From assembly GCF_005280275.1 (NCBI RefSeq), contig NZ_CP040021.1, forward strand, positions 1,451,001 through 1,515,000: a stretch of 64,000 nt of DNA. Reading direction: 5' to 3'. This document shows, in pieces, positions 8,922-29,679 of the stretch. How positions within the stretch are numbered: position 1 is the stretch's first letter; every line of letters starts with the position of its first letter. The stretch is from Salinivibrio kushneri. GTDB lineage: Bacteria; Pseudomonadota; Gammaproteobacteria; Enterobacterales; Vibrionaceae. Below the pieces are notes generated by a model that saw nothing but the letters and a program-made list of their open reading frames with translations, searched no databases and was not told where the DNA came from. A program made the position numbers and the translations under genes.

Positions 8922-8983
8922 AGGCGTTATCAGGGTTACTTTGTGTGAGTCATCTTCTCAGTGTAACAAACCCCACCAATTAC

Positions 8984-8999
8984 TGTATAGATAAACAGC
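8984..8999 (-). promoter_or_regulatory. LexA (SOS) box of polB
   Basis: CTGTATAGATAAACAG fits CTGT-N8-ACAG exactly and its flanking bases (TA before, CT after) extend the match to the E. coli consensus. It lies 63 bases upstream of the polB start, between it and the preceding minus-strand gene. Confidence 0.88.
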
Positions 9000-9008
9000 T
9001 CTGAGAAA

Positions 9009-9896: not shown

Positions 9897-10020
9897 TCGT
9901 ATTCACGCCTTGTTACTCATCCTTTCTATAAGACCGAGCACAACCGTCAATACTTTCAACCCTTTGTTGTCTCTCGCGGACGCGATACAATACGCGTTTG
10001 TTCGTTTCCGGGAAGTATGC

Positions 10021-10722: not shown

Positions 10723-10736
10723 CCTTGATGAATCAC

Positions 10737-10759
10737 AGGCCGGCTTATGTCCGGCCTTT
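10737..10759 (+). terminator. Hairpin terminator after the DUF2786 gene
   Basis: AGGCCGG and CCGGCCT form a 7-bp GC-rich stem around a 7-nt loop, followed by only three T. It is a plausible but weak intrinsic terminator. The remaining bases up to ompA (10760-10996) show no gene. Confidence 0.65.
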
Positions 10760-10996
10760 GTCAGCACTTTCCCATCAATAAGACACCTGTGTTAAACACG
10801 TCAAATCATGGTCAAATCGCTTCTCGCCTATTGTGTTACACGCCTCTCAGGTCTAGCCTAGGATCCACGTCACGTTATCCATGTTCAGCCTGCTCTACTC
10901 ACTGGCAGTTGCAACCCCATGGTCTAAGGTGACTGAATAACAAGCATTCACAATGCGTAAAATAAGATACTTCATATCCTTGAATAGGAGAGTGGC

Positions 10997-12019: not shown

Positions 12020-12050
12020 TCACATCGACGATCGCATCATGTAAACACGC

Positions 12051-12080
12051 AAAAGGCCACCGCATTGTCGGTGGCCTTTT
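12051..12080. terminator. Bidirectional terminator between ompA and the cyclotransferase-like gene
   Basis: AAAAGGCCACCG (12051-12062) pairs with CGGTGGCCTTTT (12069-12080) around a 6-nt loop, with A-run and T-run on the two sides. It can stop both convergent transcripts. Confidence 0.9.
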
Positions 12081-12105
12081 CTTGTCATGAACAATCAATG
12101 AATGA

Positions 12106-12675
12106 TTAGCCGCGCGCCGCAAAACCCGTCAAGTGCATCTGCATCAAACGATCAATGTCGATTCTATCTTGATCGCTGACTCCCGCCACCCGTGGGTATC
12201 TGGGCTCGGCGCGATCATTATGATAAGCACCTTTCCATCCCTGAGTGGTGGTTAAAAACGCGCGAGCAAAGTCGGTCGAATAGCGCAAACACCCTGCCAT
12301 AACCGTATCGACATAGGATTGGGCAATCGGCTTGTCTGCATCTGGGGGACGCCGTGTATCGGCAACATACACGTACACGGGGCCATCAAGCGTCACGTCT
12401 TCGGGCAGCGCGATGTTTGATTCAGCTAACTGTAAACGCTGATAGCCTGCCTCACGCCGATCAAAGTCGGGCAGTGACTCGGGGTCGATATTGACCAATA
12501 CTCCGTTGCATTCACCCTCCCCTTCAAGCACTACCAGCGGTGAGATAAGCGCCTCACTCACATTGCTCCAATGGCGGCTTAGTCCACTGACAGTCACCGG
12601 ACACGCCCACCCTGAATCGCCTGTCAGCGCCCGTGAGGCTGGATTCATCAAACTCCCGTACCCAAATAGATACAT
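12106..12675 (-). CDS. Gamma-glutamylcyclotransferase-like (AIG2/GGCT fold) protein
   Basis: The start MYLFGYGSLMNPAS is the substrate-binding YGSL motif of the gamma-glutamylcyclotransferase fold, whose members cleave gamma-glutamyl groups to 5-oxoproline. The FDRREAGYQR segment (about residues 70-79) supplies the expected catalytic glutamate in the E-x-G-Y context. The protein has 189 residues from the ATG at 12675, which follows an AAAGGAG ribosome site; a longer reading frame adds 40 residues without family match. C-terminal residues from about 120 (CLRYSTDFARAFLTTTQGW) are less typical. The exact substrate is unknown. It is divergent from the M32 carboxypeptidase gene. Confidence 0.82.
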   Translation of the reverse strand: MYLFGYGSLMNPASRALTGDSGWACPVTVSGLSRHWSNVSEALISPLVVLEGEGECNGVLVNIDPESLPDFDRREAGYQRLQLAESNIALPEDVTLDGPVYVYVADTRRPPDADKPIAQSYVDTVMAGCLRYSTDFARAFLTTTQGWKGAYHNDRAEPRYPRVAGVSDQDRIDIDRLMQMHLTGFAARG

Positions 12676-12786
12676 GACGTTGCAAACTCCTTTATTGCAT
12701 TTACTGGCAGAACCAGAGGCGCTGCCTTGCTTTTCTCTCTGAAATTGCCAGAATATCCGGCAACGTTGTAAACAAGGAAAGTGATT

Positions 12787-14274
12787 ATGGAACAACTAGA
12801 TAAGCTGGAAGCTCACTTCAAACGTCTATCGCATTTTCAGCACCTTGCCGCAATCTGCGGTTGGGATCAAGCCACCATGATGCCAGATGGCGGCAATCAC
12901 GCCCGGGCCGACGCCATGGCAGAACTCGCCCTCTACTGTCATCAACAAATGACCCAGCCAGAGCTGGGTGACTGGTTCGCGGACGTGGATGAAAAATCCC
13001 GCCACCTAAGCGCCACGCAAAAAGCAAGCGTGGCAGAGATGAAGCGCCAATGGCAGCAGGCCAGCGTACTTCCCGACACCTTGGTCAAAGCCAAATCTTT
13101 AGCGGGCGCTAAATGCGAGCATGCTTGGCGTCAGCAACGCCAAGATAATGACTGGGACGGGTTTGCCAAAAATTTAAAAGAAGTGGTCGCCCTAGCGCGT
13201 GAAGAAGCCCATATCCGCGCTGACCAGAAGCTGTGTGCCCCTTATGATGCGCTCCTTGATTTGTACGAGCCCGGGATGACGGCCGAGCGTATTGATGAAG
13301 TGTTTGGTGCCCTCAAACAATGGCTACCAGAGACCATCCAAGCCGTGGTCGACAAGCAAGCACAACAGCCGGTGATCACGCCTAAAGGCCCTTTCCCACA
13401 AGCGCAACAAAAAGCCTTGGGTGAACACGTGATGAAGCAGCTTGGGTTTAGCTTTGAGTATGGTCGACTCGATATCAGCACGCATCCATTTTGTGGTGGT
13501 GTGCCCACCGATGTGCGCATCACCACCCGCTATGATGAGCAAGATTTCACCTCGGCATTAATGGGCGTGATCCACGAAACCGGCCATGCGCGCTATGAAC
13601 AAGGGTTACCTCAAGACTTAGCAGGCTTGCCGGTGGGCCAAGCGCGCTCGATGGGCGTACATGAAAGCCAAAGCCTATTTTTTGAAATGCAGCTCGCCCG
13701 CAGCGCCCCCTTCGCGACTTTAATCTGCCAACAAGCCAAACAGGCCTTTAACCGCCAGGATGATCCCGCGTTTCAGGTCGAAAACCTCCACCGCGTGCTC
13801 ACTGAGGTATCACCTGGCTATATCCGTGTCGATGCCGACGAGGTCACCTATCCTGCCCATATCATGCTGCGCTACGACATTGAACGCGATCTGATCAGCG
13901 GCAAAATGGAGGTGGATCATATTCCTGAGCGTTGGGACACCGCGATGCAGCAATACCTTGGCCTGAGCACCGCCGGCAACTACAAAAACGGCTGTATGCA
14001 AGACATTCACTGGACCGATGGCAGCTTTGGTTACTTCCCCACCTACACCTTGGGTGCCCTGTATGCCGCGCAATTGATGCAAGCGATGCGCCAGCAACTG
14101 GATGTCGACGGTATAATCGCCAGCGGCAACCTCTCGCCTATTTTTGACTGGTTGTCCCAACATATCTGGCAACGCGCCAGCACCACTTCAACCGACAACC
14201 TACTTAAAGACGCCACCGGCGAAACCCTCAACCCCGCCCACTTCCGCGAGTATATTCAAGGGCGGTATTTGTAA
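12787..14274 (+). CDS. M32-family metallocarboxypeptidase (Taq type)
   Basis: This zinc carboxypeptidase removes C-terminal amino acids from peptides. The zinc motif HETGH lies near residue 263, in the context MGVIHETGHARYEQG, with the third ligand expected in MGVHESQSLFFE (about 298). Other M32 blocks are visible, such as TDVRITTRY and EVTYPAHIMLRYDIE. The length of about 495 residues is normal. ATG at 12787 is preferred over the GTG six bases earlier because the AAGGAAAG site is better spaced. It is cytoplasmic with no signal peptide and is divergently arranged with the GGCT-like gene. Confidence 0.93.
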   Translation: MEQLDKLEAHFKRLSHFQHLAAICGWDQATMMPDGGNHARADAMAELALYCHQQMTQPELGDWFADVDEKSRHLSATQKASVAEMKRQWQQASVLPDTLVKAKSLAGAKCEHAWRQQRQDNDWDGFAKNLKEVVALAREEAHIRADQKLCAPYDALLDLYEPGMTAERIDEVFGALKQWLPETIQAVVDKQAQQPVITPKGPFPQAQQKALGEHVMKQLGFSFEYGRLDISTHPFCGGVPTDVRITTRYDEQDFTSALMGVIHETGHARYEQGLPQDLAGLPVGQARSMGVHESQSLFFEMQLARSAPFATLICQQAKQAFNRQDDPAFQVENLHRVLTEVSPGYIRVDADEVTYPAHIMLRYDIERDLISGKMEVDHIPERWDTAMQQYLGLSTAGNYKNGCMQDIHWTDGSFGYFPTYTLGALYAAQLMQAMRQQLDVDGIIASGNLSPIFDWLSQHIWQRASTTSTDNLLKDATGETLNPAHFREYIQGRYL

Positions 14275-14339
14275 ACTCACAGCATCTCCATGGCTAGCCC
14301 AGCTGGTCATGGAGCCTCTTATTAATGACGGGAGGCACT

Positions 14340-14987
14340 ATGCCCAACTATGAATCCCTTAAAGCGCGGCAGCGCCAAGAGCGCGAGCATTATCCTGAAA
14401 ATTTGTCTATTCGTGTACACAGAGCTCTCAGCTGGCTAAAGCAAGCCGAGCAAACGGATGATACAGACAGCCAGTTTATTTTCTTATGGATTGCATTTAA
14501 CGCCGCTTATGCGCAAGAGTTTGCGCAAAAACGACAGTTTACCGAGAAAAACCTCTATCAAAGCTTTCTAGAAAAACTGATTTACCTCGATAAAGAAGCG
14601 CGTTTAACTCATTTGGTGTGGCAAGAGTTCTCAGGCCCGATCCGGGTGATTCTCGATAATGATTATATCCTGCAAGCCTATTGGGAATATCAAGCCGGTC
14701 ATATCACTGAAGACAGTTGGCAAGCTTCACGCAAAAGCGCCAAAGCCCGCGCGCACAAAGCCTTGGCAAACAGTGATACCGCAACCGTATTAGCCGCTGT
14801 TTTTAGCCGTTTGTATACGTTACGTAATCAACTACTCCACGGCGGCGCCACCCACGGCAGCCAAGCCAACCGCGCCCAGCTAAAAGACTGCGTATGCATG
14901 ATGCAAAAAATCGTACCTTTAACCATTGAATTGATGATGGACGGCAACACCGCCACCTGGGGCGACCCTGTGTATCCGTTGGTGTGA
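14340..14987 (+). CDS. HEPN-domain protein (possible RNase)
   Basis: This 215-residue helical protein carries the HEPN signature R-x4-H as LRNQLLHGG around residues 164-172. HEPN proteins are often metal-independent RNases in toxin and defence systems, but others are only structural. Earlier residues FIFLWIAFNAAYAQEF (about 45-60) match the helix typical of the Apea-like HEPN group. The ATG at 14340 follows GGGAGG. It sits on the strand opposite to, and just beside, the accessory island, and could be a chromosomal neighbour or part of it. No partner nucleotidyltransferase is seen. Confidence 0.78.
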   Translation: MPNYESLKARQRQEREHYPENLSIRVHRALSWLKQAEQTDDTDSQFIFLWIAFNAAYAQEFAQKRQFTEKNLYQSFLEKLIYLDKEARLTHLVWQEFSGPIRVILDNDYILQAYWEYQAGHITEDSWQASRKSAKARAHKALANSDTATVLAAVFSRLYTLRNQLLHGGATHGSQANRAQLKDCVCMMQKIVPLTIELMMDGNTATWGDPVYPLV

Positions 14988-15149
14988 GTGTGGACACTGA
15001 CTGGTTGCAATACGTTGCTCCAGTTTAGCAAGGTATATACGCTAAGATATGTACCTTGCATCAGCGTTAAACACGGGGCTAGGTGCAAAATGCATTTGCA
15101 AATGCCTCGAACTAGGACCATCAGTGCGCTTAATGAAACGTCTTTTTAG

Positions 15150-15302
15150 TTAGTACATAATGAGCGTAATCTTGTCCGACCGACATTTAGGACATACAAA
15201 CTTCTTTAAGCGCATCTTGATTAAAAATGCTTGTCTATCGGATAGAATATAACCACACTCTTTACACGCTATATTTGATTTTCCAGGTGGTTTTATTGGC
15301 AT
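15150..15302 (-). CDS. 50-residue zinc-ribbon protein, last gene of the accessory operon
   Basis: The frame reads MPIKPPGKSNIACKECGYIL at its start and ends in KKFVCPKCRSDKITLIMY. Two CxxC pairs (Cys13/16 and Cys37/40) separated by 20 residues make a classic zinc ribbon, and the protein is basic, so it may touch nucleic acid or a partner protein. A GGGAAAG site precedes the ATG. It lies 93 bases after the GrpE-like gene on the same strand, with no terminator noticed between, so it is probably co-transcribed. Function is unknown. The flanking sequence 14988-15149 holds two small palindromes and no other gene. Confidence 0.7.
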   Translation of the reverse strand: MPIKPPGKSNIACKECGYILSDRQAFLIKMRLKKFVCPKCRSDKITLIMY

Positions 15303-15395
15303 ATCTTTCCCGACTTTTAATATTAAAAACTCTCATGAATAACTATTTTCATTAGACAATTTCTCATAAGAATTGGTTATATTTAACCTTATAGT

Positions 15396-16223
15396 TCACA
15401 AAAAAACGACTGATGGCTTGATTACTTTATTGGTGTTGGTGTTTACATAACCTCTGAGCAATACGTGTTGAATAGGACCGCTGGTATTCTTACTCGTATT
15501 GTGTTTGATGTGCTGTTGAGTATCGAATTCTATACCTTTAGTTACTTCCTGAAACGCGAACATCGGATAAGCCAAAATAAAGCGTTCGAATAGAGCATCA
15601 AACATCTTAATAACCCTATCTATATCGGCATTATCACCGTTAACCACTTCGTTTTTTATATAATCCCAAAGATTAGAAATATTCTTTTCTTGGATACCAC
15701 AAGCTACTAGCCCCTGCATGCTGGTATCCTTAAAAATGCCTCGTAACGACCCCTGAGTTTTTTCGCTTAACTCGTGATACAGCTGGCTGAGTAATATATC
15801 GCTTTCAAAGGTATGCTTATACTTATCTAACGCTGCGTTCACTTCACTCACTTGTTCTTGCTTGCTTTTTAGCTCACCTTTCTTGTCACCCAACGCCTCG
15901 ATCAGTTTTTTGTTATCTTCTTTAAAAGCATTAATATCCTCCTCTGTATTTTTCTTTTTTTGCGCTAGATCTTCATAAGCTTTAACCAGATCGGAAAGCT
16001 CCTTTCTTAACACTTCAACCTTCTCTTTTTGTTCAGTCAGTGCCAGCTCTAGCTCTTCATTCCTCTCCTTGATAAGATCATACTCTTCAACTCTAACGGT
16101 GTTTTCTCTTTCGCTCAACTGCTTAGCATTTATCTGCTTAGCGCTCTCAACAATAGCAATAATTTTGTTTTTTACCGTTTCATTTTCCAGTGCAGATAAT
16201 AAATCATTTTCGGAAATAGCCAT
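15396..16223 (-). CDS. Coiled-coil protein with GrpE-like C-terminal domain
   Basis: Residues about 40-140 form a long charged coiled coil (heptads such as EELELALTEQKEKVEVLRKE). Residues 145-230 are helical. The last 45 residues resemble the beta domain of GrpE: a G-x-x-F-D-x-x-x-H element (GIEFDTQQH) and a terminal GY-x6-KVIKPSVV, comparable to the GYTLNGRVLRPA pattern of GrpE. GrpE is the nucleotide-exchange factor of Hsp70, and an Hsp70-like ATPase is encoded in the same operon, so a dedicated pair is a reasonable inference. The first codon overlaps the stop of the preceding gene by one base, suggesting translational coupling. Confidence 0.7.
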   Translation of the reverse strand: MAISENDLLSALENETVKNKIIAIVESAKQINAKQLSERENTVRVEEYDLIKERNEELELALTEQKEKVEVLRKELSDLVKAYEDLAQKKKNTEEDINAFKEDNKKLIEALGDKKGELKSKQEQVSEVNAALDKYKHTFESDILLSQLYHELSEKTQGSLRGIFKDTSMQGLVACGIQEKNISNLWDYIKNEVVNGDNADIDRVIKMFDALFERFILAYPMFAFQEVTKGIEFDTQQHIKHNTSKNTSGPIQHVLLRGYVNTNTNKVIKPSVVFL

Positions 16224-16699
16224 TATTGTTGCCTTTTGTAGCTGCGCGTTTTTTTAAGATAAAATGACTGAATACTGATTTCATCGGAAGAAGAGCTATC
16301 GGAATCAGACAGGTTATCATCAACTATCGGCGCTTCGTTATAGGGCCGCTCTTGACTCACGCGCCGATAATCCACTTTATCGATCGAATTTGGGAAGCAC
16401 AAAGCTTCACGGTTCCGTAAGCAAAATTCATCGATCACACCCCGGACATCTTCTAAGTCATTATTAAAGCGATCAGCGATGGTCACATCAGGGTCGATAC
16501 TGAATTCTGGATCATCCCTAATCATGACAATCGCGATTTTTTCTCCCTCGACATACTCAATTTTTTTCTTAAAGGTGTGCCAAAAATCAGCCTTCGAAAG
16601 ATACTCTTCTCCCTCAAACCGAATAATTTCTCTCTGGCCCCAAATTAGTCGATAGGCTTGCGCTTGGTCACCTTTTACAGAAACGATATAATCTGTCAT
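16223..16699 (-). CDS. Unknown 158-residue acidic protein of the accessory operon
   Basis: I do not recognise a family. Residues 1-110 look globular, with alternating strands (DYIVSVKG, AYRLIWGQREIIRFEGEEYL, KIAIVMIRDDPEF) and an acidic DPDVTIADRFNNDLEDV segment. Residues about 125-142 are a low-complexity stretch of Ser and Asp (DDNLSDSDSSSSDE), then a short basic tail SYKRQQ. There is no signal peptide or membrane helix. The ATG abuts the stop codon of the upstream gene, and its stop overlaps the next start, so it is expressed with its neighbours. It could be an adaptor; this is a guess. Confidence 0.7.
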   Translation of the reverse strand: MTDYIVSVKGDQAQAYRLIWGQREIIRFEGEEYLSKADFWHTFKKKIEYVEGEKIAIVMIRDDPEFSIDPDVTIADRFNNDLEDVRGVIDEFCLRNREALCFPNSIDKVDYRRVSQERPYNEAPIVDDNLSDSDSSSSDEISIQSFYLKKTRSYKRQQ

Positions 16700-17362
16700 T
16701 TAAGACTTTAACCTCATCACTTTTTCTTCTATTTGTTCCACCGATAGATCGGGCTCAACCCTTTGGTAGGCTGCAACCAATGCATCCGCGTGTTTTCCAC
16801 TTTCACTAACACTTAACTCATCCTTGATGTAAAGACCATAGTCACCCGTTTCTAACTGCTTTTCTTTATATACTTTTATGGTTTCGATAATTTCTTTTGA
16901 TTCGACACCCTGTTGCGCAACTACCGCCAGAAAATCAGGCGTAACAACAGTATCTAGCTTTTCATTAATGCCTTTTAATGTAATCGATGCACCAATCGAC
17001 GAGCGAGCCAATAGATCTTTCTCGTCCAAATTATCAAACTTTTCCCGATCAATGGTCACGTCATCTTGAAGATAGTTAATGTATTCATTAATGGTATCAA
17101 AGTCATCTGGCTTCATATCAGCCATCATGGCTTTTTCGCCAAGCTCTGCCATATCGGAGTTAGGGTTAATAATACCTAGACTAATACCAATCGCCTTGAT
17201 CGTATCACCGACTTTTGCTGCCAGTTCCACTCCCATTTCAGCGATCTTCGTAGCGGTCGTACTTACCGCATCTGTAATTTTACTCGCCACACTACTGATT
17301 ACGTTGCATGCGCTAGACGCTATGCTAGATAACGCTGAACCCAAGCTACTGAAAAAACCCAT
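16700..17362 (-). CDS. Island protein B: amphipathic N-terminus, paralogue of island protein A
   Basis: The first 60 residues are small and hydrophobic with few charges (MGFFSSLGSALSSIASSACN), like membrane-inserting or coiled assembly segments. The rest is helical and clearly related to the gene at 20352-20999: both have an N-P-x4-L-G-E-K-A element followed by a K-P-x-D-F-D-x-I-N-x-Y-I-x-Y-L block, and both end in a helix with a xNPD/EPD-x(3)-xQ-x-E pattern. No family is recognised. The ATG follows AGGAGGCG. The gene lies 8 bases after the HerA-type ATPase gene. Roles such as a membrane-active effector or an assembly subunit are open. Confidence 0.75.
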   Translation of the reverse strand: MGFFSSLGSALSSIASSACNVISSVASKITDAVSTTATKIAEMGVELAAKVGDTIKAIGISLGIINPNSDMAELGEKAMMADMKPDDFDTINEYINYLQDDVTIDREKFDNLDEKDLLARSSIGASITLKGINEKLDTVVTPDFLAVVAQQGVESKEIIETIKVYKEKQLETGDYGLYIKDELSVSESGKHADALVAAYQRVEPDLSVEQIEEKVMRLKS

Positions 17363-17370
17363 AACGCCTC

Positions 17371-20343
17371 CTAAACTTTAACTTTTAGATCTTTTCTAAA
17401 AGTATCATGATGTCGCAATGTAATGCGCACATCATGATCGATATATAAACTGTGTAAAAAATCATTTAGCAATGATTGTCTTTCCTGTTCATCCGCGTTA
17501 TCACCCGTATTGTAACAGTTTTCATTAATAAAATGACACATAAACTCCCATCCAAAACGGTCGATATAATATACTAAATCATCCTTTTTCTTGTCTTGAC
17601 CTACGGCCTGGTACCACGCCATTGCCACCTTACCATGTAAAAAATCAATAATATCGTCCTCGTTGGGTGGTACATTGAGAAATTCTAGGCCAGGAATTAA
17701 TCCTGAACGATAGTTATTGATATAAAAGTTAAGTGCTAACTTTCTAATTTCATCTTCATCAATCTCTTCTTCATTAGTAGTACTGATATACTCTTTTATT
17801 TGTACTTGCAGTGGTTTACTCATCCCAGAGCTCGATAGTAACACCCGCCCCGGTTCTAAGTTAGATAAGAAATCTTTTTGTTCATCCGTAAGCGCCATAG
17901 TGTTCCCTACGGCCTCTTTATCGTCTTTAGCAAATAGCTTATGGATAATTTTTGTGTTGGTATTTTTAAGTACTTCGGGAGTGAGTTTATTAGGAATCTG
18001 ATCGACAATAATCAAAGATTCGCCGTACTTTCTCACTTCAGCTAACATATCCGCAAAGGTTTCAACACCCTGCTTTTTATTCTGACTATCACCAACTTCA
18101 AACTTAGACAACAAACGGTGCGCTTCTTCAATTAAGGTGATATGGCGAAATTTTTTCCCTTGTTTTTGATAGGCTCGATGATTAGCTCTAATCGCTTCAT
18201 TTAGATTCGATAAAACGAAGCCCATGATCAATGATTTTTCACTCGGATTGCGTATTTCTTCCAACTCAATAATGACATTTCTTTTTGCCAGATCATTAAA
18301 GTTAATCGAGCGTGGGGTATCGAGCATGATGCCTTTCGCCCCAATCAATAAGCCTTGTAATCTGGCTTTAATGGATCCAATATAATCTTGCTTAAGTCGG
18401 TCATCAAAACCTTGGCTAGCGACCACTTCTTCGGTCTTCAAGACCAAGTCACTTAAAGTAGGAAACGCATAGACGCCATCAGAAAAAGGATCATCATAAA
18501 ATCGGTTCGTTGAGGTAGCAATATCCCAACCTTTATCTTCATAGCACTGATAAATTGCCGCTTCAATTAATTGAGGGATCGCTGCTTCCATATCGAATGA
18601 GGATTCAATACTGGCTTTTATCATATCAACACGAGAGGTGATATTCTCATGTGGGAAGAACTCAAATGGATTGAGTTTAAATGGAGCGATATTATTATTC
18701 CCTAAGGTGAAAATAAGAATATCGTCATTGTTCTTAGCAAGCACCCTGTATTCAGTTTTTGCCGGTTCAATCACCAAAAAAGGCATATCCGCAGAGTCCA
18801 GTAATCGCTGACAGGTGGTGGTTTTTCCGCTACCTGTTACCCCCGCGATAAAGATATGTTTATCTAACTCATTTTTATCTAAATGAACATCAACACCTTG
18901 AATTAAGCCACTTTTAACCAAATTACCAAGATAAAGCTGGTTAGGTTCCCTAATCGCTTTCGCTATATTCAAACCAAACTCAACTTCTTCTTTTAGGGTT
19001 AACCCAACGACTTCCTTTTGTGGTAGACCTGCCACCACACTTAACTCATTAGTTGAAAGCCAATTGCAATCGTAACTGTTTAATGGGTTTTTAGCATGTA
19101 ACAGATTTAACTGCCTATAAGTTTCGGGGTTTTCTCTGTTATTATTTCTCTTTAATATCGGCAGTTGTAAGTTTCTAAAAGCATAAACCTCTTTTTTGTT
19201 TGTCACACGCGTTACTGTGAGCGGTGACTTATTTGCTTCTTCGCCAGAAAATATCGACCGAGCCGTGTTCCCTAATTTAATCGCACTGGCCTTGTTTTTG
19301 GCCAGCATATAGATATTCGACAGATAAAGCCCTTTGTTTTTGCCAACTTGCACGCGATGCAATAGCACATCATCAATGTAATTAAGCCATTCTTGAATGG
19401 CTTTATCGGTAAACTCTCGAGACTCACTCGATGAGGTCCCTTTTTGTTCTGATGTATTACTACCTATGTTTTTAGCCACAGATGTCGAAGTCGTCGTGCC
19501 TTTATTTTTAGCTTCTGAACCACTTTTGTATTTATCATGATCGTTTGTGGTATAGCTATTGGAGGACTGCTTTTCTCCGCCTGTTGTTGATGTGCCTTCT
19601 GTTATAGAGTGAGTCTTTCCTGTGTTTTGAGTAATGGTGATTCCATCATTTTTCCCGGTTGATGTTGTCTCCGAACTTCCCTCAGTTTCACCGGTTGTCC
19701 TTGCCTCGTTTTTTCCATCTTGAACTGTTTTTTTCGCTAGGGGTAACAGCTTGTTATAAATGGTATAAAGCTCTGACTCAATCGTATTAATCTCTAATAA
19801 TGACAAGGGATCAGCTAATACTGCAAAGCAGAACTCATCCCCAGACATGATGTCAACGAGTCGGTCTACACCTTGGAACTCCTCATTATCCTCATGCACA
19901 CTGGGGACCCCTTGCAGTCGATACATATGAGGAAAATCTTCCAATGCTTCTTTCACTGCTGTTCGTTGATTTTTATCTAGTTTTTCTACAACACTGCCTC
20001 TAAAATTACCTTCGATGGAGGGCTTGAGTATTTTTTCACCAATATCATCAACATCTAAGACAGTATCATCTTGATACTGTTTGTTTTTAGCAATACCAAA
20101 ATAAAAATAAACACTGTCTTTGGTACCCAGCAATAGATAGGTAAAAACAATACCTTGAACCGTTAATGCATTTAATACATTTTCGAACGCTTCTTTTCGT
20201 GGTGAGTCTTCATCAAATGTCACTTCTTTGATGTGATAGAGCGAAAACTCATGCTCAAGAATATGAATGGGTTTTTCAAGCCCAAACTGTTTTTGTGTAA
20301 TACCTGCATGCTCTTCAAGCAGCTCAATTAGTGACTTTTTCAT
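17371..20343 (-). CDS. HerA/FtsK-type P-loop ATPase with Ser/Thr-rich linker
   Basis: This 990-residue protein has an N-terminal globular part (1-210), a low-complexity Ser/Thr/Gly/Lys linker (about 212-308), then an ATPase core of the HerA/VirB4/FtsK class. Walker A GVTGSGKTT lies near 501-509 in the phrase HIFIAGVTGSGKTT; Walker B is LIEEAHRLL near 735-743, where the two acidic residues are IEEAH. Proteins of this class form hexameric motors that move DNA or protein. The last 170 residues have no recognised domain. The start follows AGGATC, 8 bases after the preceding gene. Which substrate it moves cannot be told. Confidence 0.88.
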   Translation of the reverse strand: MKKSLIELLEEHAGITQKQFGLEKPIHILEHEFSLYHIKEVTFDEDSPRKEAFENVLNALTVQGIVFTYLLLGTKDSVYFYFGIAKNKQYQDDTVLDVDDIGEKILKPSIEGNFRGSVVEKLDKNQRTAVKEALEDFPHMYRLQGVPSVHEDNEEFQGVDRLVDIMSGDEFCFAVLADPLSLLEINTIESELYTIYNKLLPLAKKTVQDGKNEARTTGETEGSSETTSTGKNDGITITQNTGKTHSITEGTSTTGGEKQSSNSYTTNDHDKYKSGSEAKNKGTTTSTSVAKNIGSNTSEQKGTSSSESREFTDKAIQEWLNYIDDVLLHRVQVGKNKGLYLSNIYMLAKNKASAIKLGNTARSIFSGEEANKSPLTVTRVTNKKEVYAFRNLQLPILKRNNNRENPETYRQLNLLHAKNPLNSYDCNWLSTNELSVVAGLPQKEVVGLTLKEEVEFGLNIAKAIREPNQLYLGNLVKSGLIQGVDVHLDKNELDKHIFIAGVTGSGKTTTCQRLLDSADMPFLVIEPAKTEYRVLAKNNDDILIFTLGNNNIAPFKLNPFEFFPHENITSRVDMIKASIESSFDMEAAIPQLIEAAIYQCYEDKGWDIATSTNRFYDDPFSDGVYAFPTLSDLVLKTEEVVASQGFDDRLKQDYIGSIKARLQGLLIGAKGIMLDTPRSINFNDLAKRNVIIELEEIRNPSEKSLIMGFVLSNLNEAIRANHRAYQKQGKKFRHITLIEEAHRLLSKFEVGDSQNKKQGVETFADMLAEVRKYGESLIIVDQIPNKLTPEVLKNTNTKIIHKLFAKDDKEAVGNTMALTDEQKDFLSNLEPGRVLLSSSGMSKPLQVQIKEYISTTNEEEIDEDEIRKLALNFYINNYRSGLIPGLEFLNVPPNEDDIIDFLHGKVAMAWYQAVGQDKKKDDLVYYIDRFGWEFMCHFINENCYNTGDNADEQERQSLLNDFLHSLYIDHDVRITLRHHDTFRKDLKVKV

Positions 20344-20351
20344 TGTTGATC

Positions 20352-20999
20352 CTATCGTAAATTCATGACCGCATTTTCAGCTTGTGTCGTGTCCATGTCG
20401 GGATTGGCGATCTGGTGTGCTCTTACTAACACATCACTGTGTTGATGCGCTTCTTGTAGACTTAATTTATCCGCCAAGTATTTCTCAAGATGAGCAGGCT
20501 CTAATTCAGTTTGCGCATAAGCCGTCATGATTGCGAGTGTCAATTTTGGTTCTACATCTAGTCTACTTACGGTATTCAACAATGGCAGTGATATGTTTGA
20601 CATCTTCATGTCCATATTTTCTGCAATGGCTTTAATGGCAATCGTTGTTCCAACAACATCGCGAACGGCAGTATCAACTGACGATGTATTCAACCCATGC
20701 TCTTCAACCTGAACATCATGTTTAAGATAGTCAATATAATCATTGATTTTATCGAAATCTTCAGGCTTTTTATCTGCGGCCAGTGCTTTTTCACCCAGGT
20801 TACTGACACTATCACCGGGGTTAAATACCCCAGTGACGACGTTGATTGCCTCGACAGTATTCATTACTTTCGGTAAATTTTCTCCCACGGTTTTAATCAC
20901 CATAGGTCCGTATTTAGCAACCATAGGCCCGACCGTTGCCGCGACTTTTGCTATGGCACTCACAATTGGTGAGATAAGCGTAGGTAATAAAGCAATCAT
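20352..20999 (-). CDS. Island protein A: amphipathic N-terminus, paralogue of island protein B
   Basis: This 215-residue protein starts with about 60 hydrophobic, low-charge residues (MIALLPTLISPIVSAIAKVA, then GPMVAKYGPMVIKTVG) that could form membrane-inserting or packing helices. The rest matches the gene at 16700-17362: FNPGDSVSNLGEKALAADKK parallels the same place in protein B, and KPEDFDKINDYIDYLK parallels KPDDFDTINEYINYLQ. The two paralogues flank the HerA-type gene, which suggests they form a mixed complex with it. The ATG follows AAGGAGAA, 11 bases after the Hsp70-like gene. Function is unknown. Confidence 0.75.
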   Translation of the reverse strand: MIALLPTLISPIVSAIAKVAATVGPMVAKYGPMVIKTVGENLPKVMNTVEAINVVTGVFNPGDSVSNLGEKALAADKKPEDFDKINDYIDYLKHDVQVEEHGLNTSSVDTAVRDVVGTTIAIKAIAENMDMKMSNISLPLLNTVSRLDVEPKLTLAIMTAYAQTELEPAHLEKYLADKLSLQEAHQHSDVLVRAHQIANPDMDTTQAENAVMNLR

Positions 21000-21010
21000 C
21001 GTCGTTCTCC

Positions 21011-23800
21011 TTAAAGTTCGATACGATTGATTTCATTGAGGTATATGTCATTGTGAATATCGTCTTCGTTCGCAATGACGTACTCGATGGCAGTGGGAGA
21101 GACAACGCGAATGAACACCAAAGCGTCATCATCCGTCGTGTCTAGCTTTATCACTTTCTTTTTGATACTCGTGTCGGAAATTGCCACTTGCCCAGTGCTG
21201 GTGCTGGGTTGGTCAGTATAAAAAATCTCGAACGTTTGGTAATCCGCGTAGGTAAAGTCAATCCACTCATTAAAGCTGACGTCGCGTTCGATAAGCGGCT
21301 TAAATTTTTTCTTTCTATTCTCGCCAAGATAATATTTAAAGCGAATATCATCGTCATTCACATTGTGATCAATTACTTTAATTCGGCCACCTTCACGTGA
21401 TTCGATCAACCCAAAAGCCACCCCAGTTTTACCGGTTGGCTTCTCAAGATCCTGGCTATCAACGCCCAGTGGCTGAAAAAGCTCAAACCGGCTTTCACCT
21501 TCAACTAGCCCCATTTCTTGATGTTGCAACGCAATATGTTTATCAAAAAGTGCCCTTACGAAGCTCGACTGACTCGCATTACCGGCCAGGAATATCTTCA
21601 CATTAGAAATATCCGATAGCATATGTTGGCGATTACTAAATGCTAGCCGCAGTGCATCGAAAAAGTTTTCGACACCACGCTCGATACGGTTTGATAAAAT
21701 GACGTTTAATTCTTGTTCATCGATTTGTAATCCAAAAGCAGAGTGCTGTACACCATTGACATCTGTGAGTGTCACTTGCAATTCACCTGATGCATCAAAC
21801 GAAAAGTCGTCATGCTCTTCCCAGTAGGGCCGCAAGGCAATGCACAGCTGTTTGGTATTTGTACGTGCCTCTTGCGAACGGCTTAACAGTTGCTCACTAC
21901 CCGCAAATGCATCTCGTTCTGGATGTTTCTCAAATTGAATCCCCTGCTCTAATAAGCTATTTTTGTTTTTCTTAAACACTTCAAAGGCAAGAAGCTCGAG
22001 TAAATTCTCACCGCCTAAAAACTTATCACCGCCGGCGCCAAAGTGCTCAATCACATAGTCAAAGCGACGCCGGTCCTTCTTATCTGTTGGCTCACGATAA
22101 ATGCCAAAGTCAAAATCTGTTGTACCGCCACCAAAATCGAACACGCTATAAAAAATACGTTCATCGCCTTCTGGCTCGATATGGTAAGCTTGTAATGCTG
22201 TCAGTGCATAAGCCGCTGGCTCGCTGGCACCTTTCTTCACCGATATAGTATCGATTGTCTCTTTACCCAGCTCGGCCGGCAGCGATTTTTTAAGTCCATT
22301 TCTAAAGCTATGGATAATTTTGTCGCGAATGGCCACTTCATAGGTGACAGGGAAAGACAAAATGTAGTCCATAAAAATACCGTTATTCAGGTTATTGATA
22401 TATAACCCTAAGTAATAGGCATAAATTTCAATGGGATTAAAATCTCCATCCTCAAGAGATAGGAAAGGCGGAAGATCGATGATCTTGCCATGCTGGCCGA
22501 CAACCTTTAAGTTTCGGTTTTTATCCCCAGCCCATTGCTTTAACGCATCAAGAAAGGTATTAAACTTGCTAGATTCACTGCCTTGTAATGAATTTTGCGC
22601 TGTGTGAGAAATCGTCAGATCACACCAACGCGTATCGGGCTTGTTCTCTTTTTGATGGTAAGCGGTTAAAAATGCGTTGAGATTAACAAACTCCATAATG
22701 GTTGGGTTTTCATAGTGATGCGCTGCAATATCTTTGCTGAGATCCCCGGTACCAATCCGCATCGGATGAATGTTAACGTTATCTTTTTGATACGCCACAA
22801 CTGTGCTTTTAGTACCAAAGTCAATCGCTACAACCCCTTCATTAATGCTGCTTTTAGGATCACGCGCGACCAGTTTTTTAGCTAATGGCACTGCCTCCAT
22901 TTCACTGGTATCGAGCTCATCTTGCCATAAACTCCAATGCCCTAAATCAGTATCTTCGATGATTTTTTGATGATAAGGGCTAAGATCAGCACGTTGTTTA
23001 TCCTCATTTAGCAGTTTTTTAATGATTATATTTTTTTTCATTATTTTTAGTAAGCCATCGCCACCCTCTCTATTAACATATATATTAATTAGACTTTTAT
23101 AATACTCATCATCAATAAGGGCGTTAGGCGTAAAACCACAAAGTAAAGCCTGAATAAAAATTTTCCTGCCGGCTTTCCCGTCTGAAAATCGAGAAAAATC
23201 TACGGGTAAGGAAAGCAAGGATTTTTTATATTTTTTTGTATTTGATGAGACAGCGTGAGCGTACAATTCTGAATAACGAGAAGGTTTAGTTGAAGCTGAA
23301 AATGATATGCTAGAAGCTAGTTTAGCTTTATCAGAACGGCATGGTAAATCTGAGATATTCTCTAAAAAGTTATTTAGTTTTTTGGGCCGGACTGTTGAAG
23401 ACAAAAGGCTCTGCAGGTTACTTTTTTCAGGGATATTCCACCAATTTATCGGGTCATTGATTTTTTTATTCAGTTTCTGCTCAAGATGATCTTGATCATC
23501 TGAACTATCTACCAAATCCTTACATAACCAAAAAACCTTTCTTTTTTTATCAAAATAAATATTGTCTTGGAAGCAAAGCCATCTTACACTTCCTGAATCA
23601 TAGGTATCATTCGGCATTAAAGATTCATAACATTTATTTAGTGCATAGCCAATTTCACTGTCATCATTTCGAGAGCGAATAAACGAATCGATGTGATAAT
23701 TGAGCTTTTTTTCTAACTTTTCATTTAACTCTGATCCTAACCCAATCTGCTCAATGATCTCTTTTGACAGCTTCCATTCCGATACTAGTTTTGTATTCAT
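21011..23800 (-). CDS. Large Hsp70/actin-fold ATPase with unique N-terminal region
   Basis: About 929 residues from ATG 23800, which follows GAGGAAATG; TTG 23842 would add 14 residues but has no better site. Residues 1-310 are unrecognised. The Hsp70/actin ATPase core follows: phosphate-1 motif VAIDFGTKSTVVAY (about 320), phosphate-2 motif VFDFGGGTTDFDFG (about 552) and adenosine motif IFLAGNASQSSF (about 731). The last 150 residues do not look like a canonical DnaK peptide-binding domain. It is not DnaK: the layout and the operon differ. It probably binds ATP and acts as a switch or chaperone for its neighbours, with the GrpE-like protein as exchange factor. Confidence 0.85.
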   Translation of the reverse strand: MNTKLVSEWKLSKEIIEQIGLGSELNEKLEKKLNYHIDSFIRSRNDDSEIGYALNKCYESLMPNDTYDSGSVRWLCFQDNIYFDKKRKVFWLCKDLVDSSDDQDHLEQKLNKKINDPINWWNIPEKSNLQSLLSSTVRPKKLNNFLENISDLPCRSDKAKLASSISFSASTKPSRYSELYAHAVSSNTKKYKKSLLSLPVDFSRFSDGKAGRKIFIQALLCGFTPNALIDDEYYKSLINIYVNREGGDGLLKIMKKNIIIKKLLNEDKQRADLSPYHQKIIEDTDLGHWSLWQDELDTSEMEAVPLAKKLVARDPKSSINEGVVAIDFGTKSTVVAYQKDNVNIHPMRIGTGDLSKDIAAHHYENPTIMEFVNLNAFLTAYHQKENKPDTRWCDLTISHTAQNSLQGSESSKFNTFLDALKQWAGDKNRNLKVVGQHGKIIDLPPFLSLEDGDFNPIEIYAYYLGLYINNLNNGIFMDYILSFPVTYEVAIRDKIIHSFRNGLKKSLPAELGKETIDTISVKKGASEPAAYALTALQAYHIEPEGDERIFYSVFDFGGGTTDFDFGIYREPTDKKDRRRFDYVIEHFGAGGDKFLGGENLLELLAFEVFKKNKNSLLEQGIQFEKHPERDAFAGSEQLLSRSQEARTNTKQLCIALRPYWEEHDDFSFDASGELQVTLTDVNGVQHSAFGLQIDEQELNVILSNRIERGVENFFDALRLAFSNRQHMLSDISNVKIFLAGNASQSSFVRALFDKHIALQHQEMGLVEGESRFELFQPLGVDSQDLEKPTGKTGVAFGLIESREGGRIKVIDHNVNDDDIRFKYYLGENRKKKFKPLIERDVSFNEWIDFTYADYQTFEIFYTDQPSTSTGQVAISDTSIKKKVIKLDTTDDDALVFIRVVSPTAIEYVIANEDDIHNDIYLNEINRIEL

Positions 23801-23860
23801 CATTTCCTCGATTCTGTTAATACTGAGAAATGTCTTCTCCAATAAAATTCAATGCAAGGC

Positions 23861-24868
23861 TTATCCTTCACAGACAGCGATCGCGTCTTTCATCTCGACG
23901 CCCCACACCAACTCCCCAAATCCATCAAGCCAGTGGGTAAGTTGTTGTGAGCGGATGACCGTGGCGGTGACTTGATAATGATCGTCCTGCTCGGTCATGG
24001 TTTGATCGGAAGACAGTGGCGTTTCTTGTAAATAGTGGCCGGCGCTTTTTTTAATGTTAAAGGTCAGTGAGCAGCGCTCGCCTTCTCCAAAACCAAACCG
24101 GCCGTCGTCATCGTATTTTTTTAGATCAAAATCTGATGGCGGCGTAAATGGGAATTTAGACACATTGGCACGGTTAATGCGGTGAACCGCTATGCTGCGT
24201 TCGTTGTCGTAGCCCTCGAACCGGCATACTAAATATAAGCGTGGGCCTTGTTGCGCTAGGCCGAGTGGGTAAACCCGTTGGCCAGTTTTTTGTTGCTGTT
24301 TGGCGTTGTAGTAATCGAGGATCAGCGGATAGTCGTTGTAGAGCGCGTCAGTAACATTTTTGAAAACCTCATCACTCATCTTGGGGGGGAGCAACGGCTG
24401 GGTCTCGCTGACCACACGCACTTTCTTGGTCCAGGCGCGCGCTTTTTCGGCATCACCCGTCGGGTTTAATTCATAGCGCGCCGCCGCAAACATAGCACTG
24501 AGTGATTCGGTCACATTAGCCGGCAGCAAGTTAGTGAGGTAGTTTTCAGCCAGCGACAACAATAACGCCTCTTGCGTGGATAACTTGCCGTTGCTCAGCT
24601 CTGGGGCATAGCGCGATAACCGATAGCCATAAGGCTTGCTCGTATCATCACACTCGGCAAACCCTTCCTCGCAAAGCATCTCTAAGTTACGTTGAATAGT
24701 ACGGATATTGCGGTCTATCCCATCGCTGGCAACGGCTTTTTGTAGATCGCCTGCGGTTTGTTTGATCCGGTGTGAAAGGTGGCGCAATAACAAGAATGCG
24801 AGCCTTAGCGAGTCACTTTTAGGCGGACGGGTTGTCATAAATGTTTCGATGTCTAATGATTGTTTCAC
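23861..24868 (-). CDS. WYL-domain transcriptional regulator, first gene of the accessory operon
   Basis: The 335-residue protein has an N-terminal winged helix (about 18-85, with QRNLEMLCEEGFAE as recognition and turn) and a WYL domain (about 195-265; RVYPLGLAQQGPRLYLVCRF and RSIAVHRI). WYL regulators often control defence and conflict operons and sense nucleic-acid or nucleotide ligands. The GTG at 24868 is the likely start, with AGGTAAATAATA upstream; an ATG ten codons later is possible. It lies 60 bases before the Hsp70-like gene on the same strand, so it could both lead and regulate the operon. It appears richer in GC than the genes it precedes. Confidence 0.88.
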   Translation of the reverse strand: MKQSLDIETFMTTRPPKSDSLRLAFLLLRHLSHRIKQTAGDLQKAVASDGIDRNIRTIQRNLEMLCEEGFAECDDTSKPYGYRLSRYAPELSNGKLSTQEALLLSLAENYLTNLLPANVTESLSAMFAAARYELNPTGDAEKARAWTKKVRVVSETQPLLPPKMSDEVFKNVTDALYNDYPLILDYYNAKQQQKTGQRVYPLGLAQQGPRLYLVCRFEGYDNERSIAVHRINRANVSKFPFTPPSDFDLKKYDDDGRFGFGEGERCSLTFNIKKSAGHYLQETPLSSDQTMTEQDDHYQVTATVIRSQQLTHWLDGFGELVWGVEMKDAIAVCEG

Positions 24869-24899
24869 TATTATTTACCTGCCTACTTTCACAAACAAG

Positions 24900-24911
24900 C
24901 CGCGATCGCGG
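24900..24911. promoter_or_regulatory. Perfect palindrome upstream of the WYL gene, possible operator
   Basis: CCGCGATCGCGG is a 12-bp perfect palindrome, 32 bases upstream of the WYL start and between it and the divergent diguanylate cyclase gene. Its position suits an operator for autoregulation, which is an inference. A shorter inverted repeat, ATGCGTCGCAT, lies nearby at about 24952-24962. Confidence 0.4.
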
Positions 24912-25062
24912 TTCCATTTCATAACCGAGCCTACCATCACAAAAAGGCAAAATGCGTCGCATATAAAACAATCAGTTAAACCGATTTAATCAGACACATT
25001 CTGTCGCACCGTACCGATAAAGTGGCCTCATACTTGGTTAGGGTGCGTAAAGGAATATAGTC

Positions 25063-25698
25063 ATGAACGATGTGCTAGAACAAGTCAAAACGCTGATAAA
25101 CGATGACACCAAAACCATTAAACAACTGCGTTATCAGGTGGGTCAGTGTGAGCAATTGATTGCCGCATTAGAAACGGAAAACCAACGCTTGGTCGATCAG
25201 TTGGGGCATTTGGTACAAAAGCTCAATGCCGATGACATGACAGGCCTTGCCAATCGGTATCATCTCGAAACCAGCTTCAATACACTGCTAAGTCAACCTC
25301 AATGCCACCAGTTGGCACTGGTGTTTATCGATATGAATAAGTTGAAGACGGTGAATGATCAATACGGCCACCTGGTGGGCGACCAGGCGATTTGTCACCT
25401 GGCTACACTGCTCGCCAACAATACGCACGAGGGGATCGCGGCGCGCTTTGGCGGGGATGAATTTGCGGTGTTATTGCCCAACACCACACACGCGGCTGCC
25501 ACTGATTGGGCCCAGTCACTGGTAATGCAACTGGCTCATTCACCAATCCTGATTGATCAACGCCCGCATTATTTAAGCTTTAGTTTCGGTGTGAGCGACA
25601 TGCGCGCGGATAATTCCCCTCAGTTAACCAGCAGCAAAACCGCGTTGGATCAGTTAATTCGTCAAGCCGATACACGTATGCTCAGTCGCAAGGCCTAA
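25063..25698 (+). CDS. Diguanylate cyclase (GGDEF domain)
   Basis: A 211-residue cytoplasmic GGDEF protein that would make cyclic di-GMP from two GTP. Residues 1-55 form a short coiled coil (TIKQLRYQVGQCEQLIAALE) that may drive dimerisation. The GGDEF domain spans about 56-210; the active-site loop RFGGDEF is near 128-134, and the metal-binding D in FIDMNKLK and the nearby DADDMTGLANR are present. The inhibitory RxxD I-site is absent five residues before GGDEF. No sensor domain or membrane helix is seen. The ATG follows AAAGGAAT. It is divergent from the WYL operon. Confidence 0.93.
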   Translation: MNDVLEQVKTLINDDTKTIKQLRYQVGQCEQLIAALETENQRLVDQLGHLVQKLNADDMTGLANRYHLETSFNTLLSQPQCHQLALVFIDMNKLKTVNDQYGHLVGDQAICHLATLLANNTHEGIAARFGGDEFAVLLPNTTHAAATDWAQSLVMQLAHSPILIDQRPHYLSFSFGVSDMRADNSPQLTSSKTALDQLIRQADTRMLSRKA

Positions 25699-25730
25699 CA
25701 CCATATACGTACCTAAGTAAAAGCCATGAC

Positions 25731-25763
25731 ATCACAAGGTGGTAACCATCAGCACCTTGTGAT
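25731..25763 (+). terminator. Hairpin after the diguanylate cyclase gene
   Basis: ATCACAAGGTG (25731-25741) and CACCTTGTGAT (25753-25763) form a perfect 11-bp stem around an 11-nt loop, followed by a weak T-rich stretch. It may terminate transcription before ybiT. Confidence 0.55.
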
Positions 25764-25912
25764 TCTTCACCATTAATCTGTTAATTCCATCACATTTCTG
25801 TACAATGCGCGCTCAGTCATATTTATCTTTACACCCTCCTCGCTGGGCCGTGGATTTATCCCTGGTGATAAACGACACGGACCTTGGTTGAGACAGTCGC
25901 TAGGAACCTCTT

Positions 25913-27591: not shown

Positions 27592-28170
27592 TTACTGGTC
27601 TGTCACTAGCAGTACGCTGCCCTCAAGCTGCGTCGGCCCGTAAGCAAAGATCTCAGCGTTACGCACGTCAAACATCAAAATCGTATTATCCGCTTGCACA
27701 TGGCTATTGCTCCACACGTAAGCGCGCACATCACCACTGCCATAGCCTTCTTCTGACGTAGAGTATGGGAATCCGGCGGCAAATGCCTTTGGATTAAGCG
27801 CGGGTTTCATACAGGCATGTTCAGCCAAGGACGCTAGCTCTTTGATATTGGGCATGCGCCACTGCGTGTGACCGGCAAATTGATGCAGTGGGTGCGCCTG
27901 GCTTTGATTGATCGCTTGCACTTCATTGAGTGCGGCTTGCCAATACATTCCTGTGCCCTCGCCACGACACGCCTGCTGTTCGGCTTGCCAGGTTTTACCC
28001 AGAGGGCAACGCATCCAAGTTAATCCGGTAAAGGTGTCCGTTACCGTGCCATTATCCTCAAAGCTGTAACGGACATTCGGTGCCGTTTTGGTTAAATCAA
28101 TCGAGCATTCTTGGCCCGCCCATGCGGTTGCAGATGCGAAGATACTGGCGGCAATGATCAGCTTGTTCAT
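27592..28170 (-). CDS. Secreted DUF1566 (Lcl-type) protein
   Basis: This 192-residue protein has a signal peptide (MNKLIIAASIFASATAWAGQ) and one DUF1566 domain, known from Lcl and other surface proteins. The typical pattern is G-L-T-W-M at about 50, W-R-M-P-N-x-K-E-L in the middle (here MPNIKELASLAEH) and a W-S-N/S near the end (YVWSNSHVQ). It is likely periplasmic or on the cell surface. Its ATG overlaps the stop of the upstream lipoprotein gene by one base, after a GGAGAA site, so the two are coupled. Its function in the operon is unknown; cysteines are paired in number. Confidence 0.82.
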   Translation of the reverse strand: MNKLIIAASIFASATAWAGQECSIDLTKTAPNVRYSFEDNGTVTDTFTGLTWMRCPLGKTWQAEQQACRGEGTGMYWQAALNEVQAINQSQAHPLHQFAGHTQWRMPNIKELASLAEHACMKPALNPKAFAAGFPYSTSEEGYGSGDVRAYVWSNSHVQADNTILMFDVRNAEIFAYGPTQLEGSVLLVTDQ

Positions 28171-29633: not shown

Positions 29634-29679
29634 ATCTGTCTTTTTAATAAGGGTGTTAAGGTGATTGAATAACGCGCTA

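Follow-up and report, generated by a model that had tools for sequence, protein, structure and literature searches.

Hsp70 and GrpE are textbook chaperones, and it has to be asked what such a pair does when it is encoded in a compact operon together with a HerA-type ATPase and two small paralogous proteins, A and B. This constellation is found in a 64,000-nucleotide stretch of the Salinivibrio kushneri genome (contig NZ_CP040021.1, positions 1,451,001 to 1,515,000 of the forward strand), which has been analysed as a whole and is called the window in the following. A preliminary description, made from the sequence alone, had proposed an undescribed system with a possible role in defence and a surface or secretion assembly as the main alternative. 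Our tentative answer, held somewhat short of an even chance, is that the genes form a conflict cassette gained by horizontal transfer, directed most likely against phages and built as a chaperone-gated pump; regarding its use in conflict, action against phages is considered more likely than secretion. A mobile, lidless Hsp70 with its own exchange factor, a ring pump and proteins of unmatched fold would mean that the ATP cycle of Hsp70 has been recruited as a switch in conflict, and as the cassette is compact and can be cloned whole, the question is directly testable.

An operon gained as one block

All eight minus-strand genes claimed for the span from 15150 to 24868 have been found as open reading frames (ORFs), and they lie within an inserted island:

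14275-25772, no strand assigned: inserted island of about 11.4 kb, recognised from empty sites in the same genus and from its contrast in guanine-plus-cytosine (GC) content
15150-15302, minus strand: zinc ribbon of 50 residues with a CxxC...CxxC pattern, from the ORF list, its Pfam matches lying under the cut-offs
15396-16223, minus strand: GrpE-like exchange factor with a variable coiled coil and a C-terminal GrpE beta-wing, from hhalign profile comparison
16223-16699, minus strand: protein C, 158 residues, fast evolving, matching no library family
16700-17362, minus strand: protein B, paralogue of A, all-helical with a small-residue-rich N-terminus, from an AlphaFold2 (AF2) model with a predicted local distance difference test score (pLDDT) of 91
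17371-20343, minus strand: ATPase of the HerA/FtsK superfamily, from DUF87 (9e-8), PADLOC HerA and mad8 models, HerA chains in the PDB and alignment
20352-20999, minus strand: protein A, paralogue of B, from cross-matching homologues and 33% identity
21011-23842, minus strand: lidless Hsp70-like ATPase whose N-terminal domain is variable, from comparison of the AF2 model with DnaK and from hhalign
23861-24868, minus strand: WYL-domain regulator, from PF13280 (3.7e-9)

The island begins directly after the stop codon and terminator of an M32 carboxypeptidase gene that ends at 14274, and on its right side the sequence again matches the empty site of genome G018 exactly from 25773 onwards. All seven other genomes of the genus searched contain the flanking carboxypeptidase gene and, on the other side, the region of the ABC-F gene (starting at about 25756), and in six of these only 33-48 bp separate the two flanks by DNA match. 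Given these near-adjacent flanks and the low GC content of the island (41.6%, versus 51.3% and 52.2% in the flanks), about 11.4 kb have been gained as one block, which we have counted in favour of a conflict cassette. Among the nine proteins scanned with Pfam, none matched an integrase or a transposase. The seventh genome (G023; L152, L160) holds a different insert of ~1.6 kb with one ORF of 452 residues between the same two genes, and the insertion site may for this reason be a hotspot.

Within the island, the tightness claimed for the six-gene core has been confirmed, with gaps of 11 bp between the A and Hsp70 genes and 8 bp each between HerA and A and between B and HerA, with C abutting B, and with a 1-base overlap of the GrpE-like gene and C; the zinc ribbon follows at a distance of 93 bp from the GrpE-like gene. 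As most homologues begin at the Met corresponding to residue 14/15, the true Hsp70 start probably lies there, near 23800 and ~42 bases inside the listed TTG, so that the gap between the Hsp70 and WYL genes would be closer to 60 bp than to the 18 bp of the ORF list.

That the genes stay together elsewhere has likewise been borne out. The order Hsp70-A-HerA-B-C-GrpE-like is kept in nine of eleven gammaproteobacterial loci (the window and L018-L025), which belong to Vibrionaceae, Pseudoalteromonas and Ferrimonas; the two deviating loci are an Acinetobacter plasmid (L010) with another order and a 5.4-kb contig (L040) that holds only the GrpE-like and Hsp70 genes. Across the family, the Hsp70 protein occurs in 6 of 121 genomes, our own included, and in each of the six the core is complete and identically arranged. 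The pairwise distances of Hsp70 correlate with those of HerA (r = 0.97 over 24 loci) and of the GrpE-like protein (r = 0.90 over 23 loci), both values being given with no control for the species tree. Among 398 genomes of the phylum, proteins of the A/B type have been found in 4, all four of which also gave strong Hsp70 matches. This restriction of A/B to genomes with the Hsp70 family is counted, like the correlated distances, in favour of the conflict cassette.

Two of the records with Hsp70 relatives are plasmids, from Acinetobacter and Helicobacter. The Acinetobacter plasmid encodes WYL, zinc ribbon, HerA, a 78-residue protein, an A/B protein, one unassigned protein and a GrpE-like protein, and further two Hsp70s, a HEPN protein, a dynamin-family protein and an integrase. 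This plasmid-borne set with its integrase and the patchy spread over the family support a mobile cassette. In the HerA tree, Pseudoalteromonas is nested inside Vibrionaceae and Photobacterium is split, a topology that fits horizontal transfer and taken alone is no proof of it. A peptide-pattern scan of viral contigs gave no HerA relative, and the E. coli genomes gave no DNA match to the HerA gene.

The chaperone pair, the ring ATPase and their partners

The identities assigned preliminarily to the Hsp70, GrpE and HerA proteins hold, as judged from fold model, profile alignment, and family and structure matches. For the Hsp70-like window protein, Pfam gives no Hsp70 match and the NCBIfam DnaK model a faint one only (0.0069). 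Its AF2 model (pLDDT 84, built with 43 sequences) matches the nucleotide-binding domain (NBD) and the beta part of the substrate-binding domain (SBDbeta) of DnaK, with 283 PDB matches at E<=0.001 and DnaK as the best (E 1.5e-19). Two regions have been distinguished:

21401-22840, minus strand: Hsp70 NBD, residues 335-814, from profile alignment with DnaK
22913-23794, minus strand: fast-evolving N-terminal domain of the Hsp70, residues 17-310, candidate sensor, from the identity profile

In DnaK, residues D8, K70, E171, D194, T199 and D201 have catalytic roles. Using hhalign with the host DnaK and HscA, they align to D341, K435, E541, D569, T574 and D576 of the window protein, and none of the six varies across 43 rows. 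The helical lid (SBDalpha) is missing; in the model, beta strands reach to residue 942 of 943. The first 310 residues form a separate, weakly modelled domain with no Pfam match in the window protein, and mean identity among six homologues from five family genomes amounts to 32% in the N-terminal domain, versus 78% in the NBD and 68% in SBDbeta. At the corresponding position, one Acinetobacter homologue resembles Lcl_C (1e-6, below the Pfam cut-off) and one from Domibacillus a biotin/lipoyl domain (1.2e-8); because of this fast change and the differing domains in relatives, the N-terminus seems to be variable and exchangeable. No J-domain has been matched among the nine proteins scanned with Pfam.

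Tandem pairs of Hsp70-like genes have been observed in five loci (L021 at 7220-12796 in G044, L058, L088, L036 and L010), and the partners look as if they work as a heterodimer.

The C-terminal beta-wing of GrpE contacts the Hsp70 NBD. In the GrpE-like protein, the C-terminal half has been aligned to 18 true GrpEs with an hhalign probability of 95% (E 2e-8), versus at most 1.3% for the control profiles of A/B, C, WYL and HEPN. It is this profile comparison that establishes the GrpE link, and not the PDB sequence search, in which coiled-coil proteins appear among the best 60 of 386 matches; Pfam gives no GrpE match for the window protein and one below the cut-off in a relative. Identity to five family homologues is 20% in the coiled coil and 61% in the GrpE part.

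The HerA-type ATPase has intact Walker motifs by alignment, with the Walker A sequence GVTGSGKTT (K507) and the EE pair at 739-740, and mad8 is the best of its PADLOC matches (1e-24). It carries an N-terminal domain and an insertion at residues 206-312 that consists to 59% of S, T, G and N, and its identity to five homologues falls from 84% in the ATPase core to 37% in the C-terminal domain. Protein C shares 35% identity among family homologues and has no match in PADLOC, Pfam, NCBIfam or PHROGs. The fast change of C, the HerA C-terminal domain and the Hsp70 N-terminus is as expected for putative recognition surfaces.

The paralogy of A and B has been verified, since each retrieves the homologues of the other. 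The AF2 model, made on B, comprises 12 helices in ~220 residues, and its fold has no match at E<=0.001 in the PDB or BFVD. Over 33 A/B proteins, the number of charges in the first 55 residues is 0-10 and that of G, A or S 8-32, and the best 19-residue hydropathy ranges from 1.09 to 2.35, reaching at least 1.6 in 22 of the 33. As a side observation, two short proteins (L010 at 8383-8619, L081 at 16567-16839) have an A/B-like MGFxS N-terminus and lack the helical body; the first is the 78-residue Acinetobacter protein, which starts MGFWSS like the A/B protein of that plasmid. The MGFxS start may be a separate targeting or assembly signal.

From these parts we infer a scheme for the conflict cassette in which, in the resting cell, the Hsp70 would keep A/B inactive, while its fast-evolving N-terminal domain, and C, would detect a foreign or damaged state. 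On this trigger, A/B would be passed to a HerA hexamer, which would drive their insertion into the membrane or their incorporation into an assembly, and their action would halt growth before phage release. The GrpE-like protein would reset the Hsp70, a HEPN RNase, where present, would act as a second effector, and the WYL regulator would set expression.

Several findings weigh against this reading. The distance correlations would equally be produced by plain vertical descent, and weak constraint would give the same pattern of fast evolution as recognition surfaces. Membrane action of A/B is suggested by composition: the membrane-active look that had been ascribed to both proteins stands for the low-charge, small-residue-rich N-termini and for A of the window, with a hydropathy of 1.88; B, with only 1.35, belongs to the 11 of 33 proteins below 1.6. 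Promoter counts in the island are, like terminator counts, not above those of shuffled sequences. Further points come from the relatives and neighbours of the system: A/B is unmatched in 24 of 27 genomes (some incomplete) with a HerA-less Hsp70 locus, in a search whose control gave a match in 3 of 3 HerA-positive genomes, and because many Bacillota pairs occur in genomes with no detected A/B, A/B are excluded as the general effector of the Hsp70-GrpE family. Control proteins in the neighbour analysis given below also match generic PADLOC models (mad3 in 5), clear defence neighbours occur at only two of nine loci, and relatives of the core adjoin toxin-delivery genes in Helicobacter and Bacillota. 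HEPN, finally, is also found without the system in three of the six HEPN-bearing family genomes, and its copy in L023 is shortened to an ORF of 137 residues.

Regarding a role apart from conflict, the locus might be a stress or proteostasis cassette, in which an alternative Hsp70-GrpE pair with an ATPase deals with aggregation or membrane damage. Hsp70 and GrpE are chaperone parts, and a lone Hsp70-like homologue of ~970 residues with a similar N-terminal motif has been observed in 40 of the 398 genomes of the phylum that lie outside the class (loci L098-L122), with no GrpE-like neighbour in the nine loci read (L114-L122); as it is widespread in one genome group, it looks like a protein with another role, which again speaks against the conflict cassette. 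Moreover, the minimal Hsp70-GrpE pair of Peribacillus lies in a shared neighbourhood. The patchy distribution and block transfer, the lack of a J-domain match among the nine proteins scanned, the rapid change of the N-terminal domain and the defence neighbours at two of nine loci argue against this explanation, which we regard as improbable.

Relatives and neighbouring genes

In a scan of named genomes, 303 relatives were found and 76 loci kept, and the family ranges over Pseudomonadota, Campylobacterota, Bacillota and Lentisphaerota. Among the 75 loci with a clear Hsp70, the GrpE-like gene is present in 64, C in 26 and A/B in 23, counts for which the profiles were built partly from the same loci and in which partner genes at contig ends and in incomplete metagenome-assembled genomes are underestimated. 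HerA is full-length in 24 loci and broken in L028, and A/B accompanies it in 23 of these 25, the two exceptions (L039, L090) sitting on short contigs that end nearby. In Bacillota the layout GrpE-like-Hsp70-HerA-A/B-C recurs, and many Bacillota carry the GrpE-like-Hsp70 pair alone. The HerA motor, which had been taken as the assembly core, is therefore not the core of the family: Hsp70 with the GrpE-like protein occurs more often as a unit, and HerA, A/B and C form a detachable module. It is possible, though more doubtful than the cassette itself, that these loci represent conflict machines of one widespread family, a dedicated Hsp70-GrpE pair serving as sensor and gate and being combined with interchangeable pump and effector modules (HerA with A/B and C; FtsK with WXG100 and nuclease/immunity genes; VgrG-like genes). 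If true, an immune or weapon system would be driven by the Hsp70 cycle, with A/B as a new helical effector fold.

For the neighbourhoods, 81 proteins of 100-899 residues from nine loci (longer ones dropped) have been compared, using the 2023 version of the PADLOC models, with a control set of 81 of 245 proteins from 16 regions of six genomes. The best 25 of 173 families matched by the neighbours include Type I specificity subunits (3), Type I methylases (2-3) and CARF/Csx1 (2), versus no Type I restriction-modification (RM) or CARF family among the best 25 of 60 in the controls. Clear defence neighbours lie at L021 (HsdM, HsdS, CARF) and at L024, where two GmrSD proteins occur in addition and Type I RM and CARF have been assigned via the clusters common to L021. 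Nearness to known defence genes, counted here for the anti-phage reading, is clear at two of the nine loci.

A different surrounding has been found in other relatives. On the Helicobacter plasmid (L011, 5100-13810), a WXG100 protein (4.8e-5, under the cut-off), an FtsK/SpoIIIE ATPase (3.6e-38), a WHH/colicin-DNase and a SUKH immunity protein lie beside an Hsp70 gene that is split into two ORFs, with weakly GrpE-like genes adjoining. The Selenomonadaceae locus L076 (12261-20818) holds a VgrG-like Phage_base_V protein, Imm11 and a sub-threshold AHH nuclease, and in Ureibacillus (L032, 1116-8355) DUF4280 and an Hsp70-VWA protein stand beside the Hsp70-GrpE pair. Since relatives carry WXG100/FtsK or VgrG-like genes along with toxin-immunity pairs, the secretion alternative is stronger than the preliminary description could know. 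It can be formulated as an export or delivery machine, in which HerA is a secretion pump, A/B are exported substrates kept by the chaperones, in the manner of an EssC-type pump and its WXG100 substrates, and Hsp70-GrpE prevents the cargo from folding and loads it; the authors of the CoCoNuT study suggest that a HerA-type ATPase accompanied by a small helical protein serves in conjugation or secretion (PMC11090510). We nevertheless rate export as rather unlikely. No toxin domain, immunity gene or secretion-channel gene has been recognised among the island's scanned proteins with PADLOC, Pfam or NCBIfam, and the lack of a toxin-immunity pair there has been counted for the anti-phage cassette; A/B have no fold match; and in the surroundings of HerA-less loci (103 neighbours) none of the best 25 of 128 families predominates, Phage_base_V occurring in 2. 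With no dominant neighbour family listed, a constant link of the Hsp70-GrpE pair to secretion genes has not been borne out.

Two side observations concern these surroundings. The Hsp70/GrpE-like core lies beside WHH nuclease genes in three Helicobacter relatives (L011, L054, L055), and the Bacillota Hsp70-GrpE locus L063 (33-8204) belongs with L076 and L032 to the loci that adjoin VgrG-like (Phage_base_V), Imm11, DUF4280 and Hsp70-VWA genes.

Known systems and accessory genes

The proposal that the gene set differs from named systems agrees with the searches: PADLOC, Pfam, NCBIfam and PHROGs gave no name for A, B, C or the set as a whole. Among the papers listed in the open literature, which leaves most subscription papers and bioRxiv outside, no title or abstract start describes it, and the words Hsp70, DnaK, HerA, GrpE, chaperone and WYL have not been found in the main text on DefensePredictor (PMC13092281). 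The gene set is new relative to the libraries and open literature searched and departs in at least one defining feature from each known system considered.

In the third extended variant of type III-A CoCoNuT systems, according to the parts of the article considered, an Hsp70-like NBD/SBD protein is combined with a small helical partner and with an ATPase of the FtsK/HerA superfamily whose beta-strand insertion is variable, HEPN domains occurring among CoCoNuT proteins (PMC11090510). An EccE3-like domain fused to the HerA ATPase is a further mark of type III-A. Our HerA insertion (residues 206-312) is, by description, reminiscent of that insertion. However, no McrB/CnuB GTPase, McrC/CnuC or DUF2357 match has been obtained among the nine proteins scanned here. 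According to the same parts, the CoCoNuT Hsp70 is degenerate, with hydrolysis at extremely low efficiency at best (PMC11090510), whereas the Hsp70 here lacks a fusion to DUF2357, retains the catalytic residues and is accompanied by a GrpE-like factor of its own. Predicted conflict operons centred on GAP1-N2 GTPases combine Hsp70 with a dedicated GrpE and in some cases a second Hsp70 (PMC7159879, in the parts considered), and a second Hsp70 also occurs in several relatives here; in contrast, no GAP1, GTPase of this kind or FNIII match has been found among our nine proteins, and nothing corresponding to HerA, A/B or C appears in those parts of PMC7159879.

With the canonical DnaK-GrpE machine, the operon shares the catalytic residues of the NBD, the SBDbeta fold and the GrpE wing, and it differs by the absence of the SBDalpha lid, the extra N-terminal domain of ~310 residues, the missing J-domain match and its accessory, mobile character. 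Type VII-like FtsK/WXG100 systems resemble it in combining a ring ATPase with small helical partners, which in Helicobacter L011 lie beside the same Hsp70 family, but no WXG100 match is found in the window operon and A/B, with ~220 residues and 12 helices, have no PDB match at E<=0.001. With MADS, the operon shares a mad8-like HerA match, no other mad gene being matched among the nine proteins.

SIR2-HerA and DUF4297-HerA systems share the HerA-type ATPase, and they suggest a further explanation, in which a HerA ring loads on phage DNA, A/B and C serve as scaffold or sensor, HEPN is the effector and Hsp70-GrpE regulates assembly. This DNA-directed defence would be in line with the resemblance of HerA to defence HerAs and MAD8, with the intact Walker motifs, and with HEPN, which adjoins the core in four of nine loci as well as on the Acinetobacter plasmid. 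We judge it quite unlikely, as no SIR2, DUF4297 or other nuclease partner has been matched in the operon, HEPN is not adjacent in the other five loci and also occurs without the system, and the A/B N-termini are membrane-seeking in look in two thirds of the proteins. HEPN as an obligatory part has been ruled out on the same counts.

The HEPN gene and a GGDEF gene belong to the inserted block and had been left out of the gene set, which was otherwise correct in all eight members:

14325-14987, plus strand: HEPN-family protein with an R-N-x3-H motif, convergent with the operon, accessory, from its motif and an annotated homologue
25063-25698, plus strand: GGDEF protein encoded within the island, its name taken from the motif

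The HEPN motif (RNQLLH, of the R-x4-6-H type) has R167, N168 and H172 invariant in 3 rows; the family name has been taken from the annotation of the Acinetobacter plasmid homologue (HEPN domain-containing), Pfam giving no match for the window protein and PADLOC weak Csx1/CARF_HEPN matches. HEPN has been detected in 6 of 121 family genomes, three of them among the six with the system (Fisher p = 0.0013), a co-occurrence counted for the conflict cassette. In genome G107 (L200, L201), one HEPN copy has been read from the sequence near GTPase-like genes and another near a recombinase, and the family may be an exchangeable RNase add-on. The GGDEF gene has no DNA match in the seven same-genus genomes. 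The WYL gene adjoins the core in just five of nine loci, and small ribbon-like ORFs are also found near L020, L010 and L041. Just to the right of the island and outside it, at 27592-29783 of the window, two proteins resemble by eye the DUF1566/Lcl_C motif.

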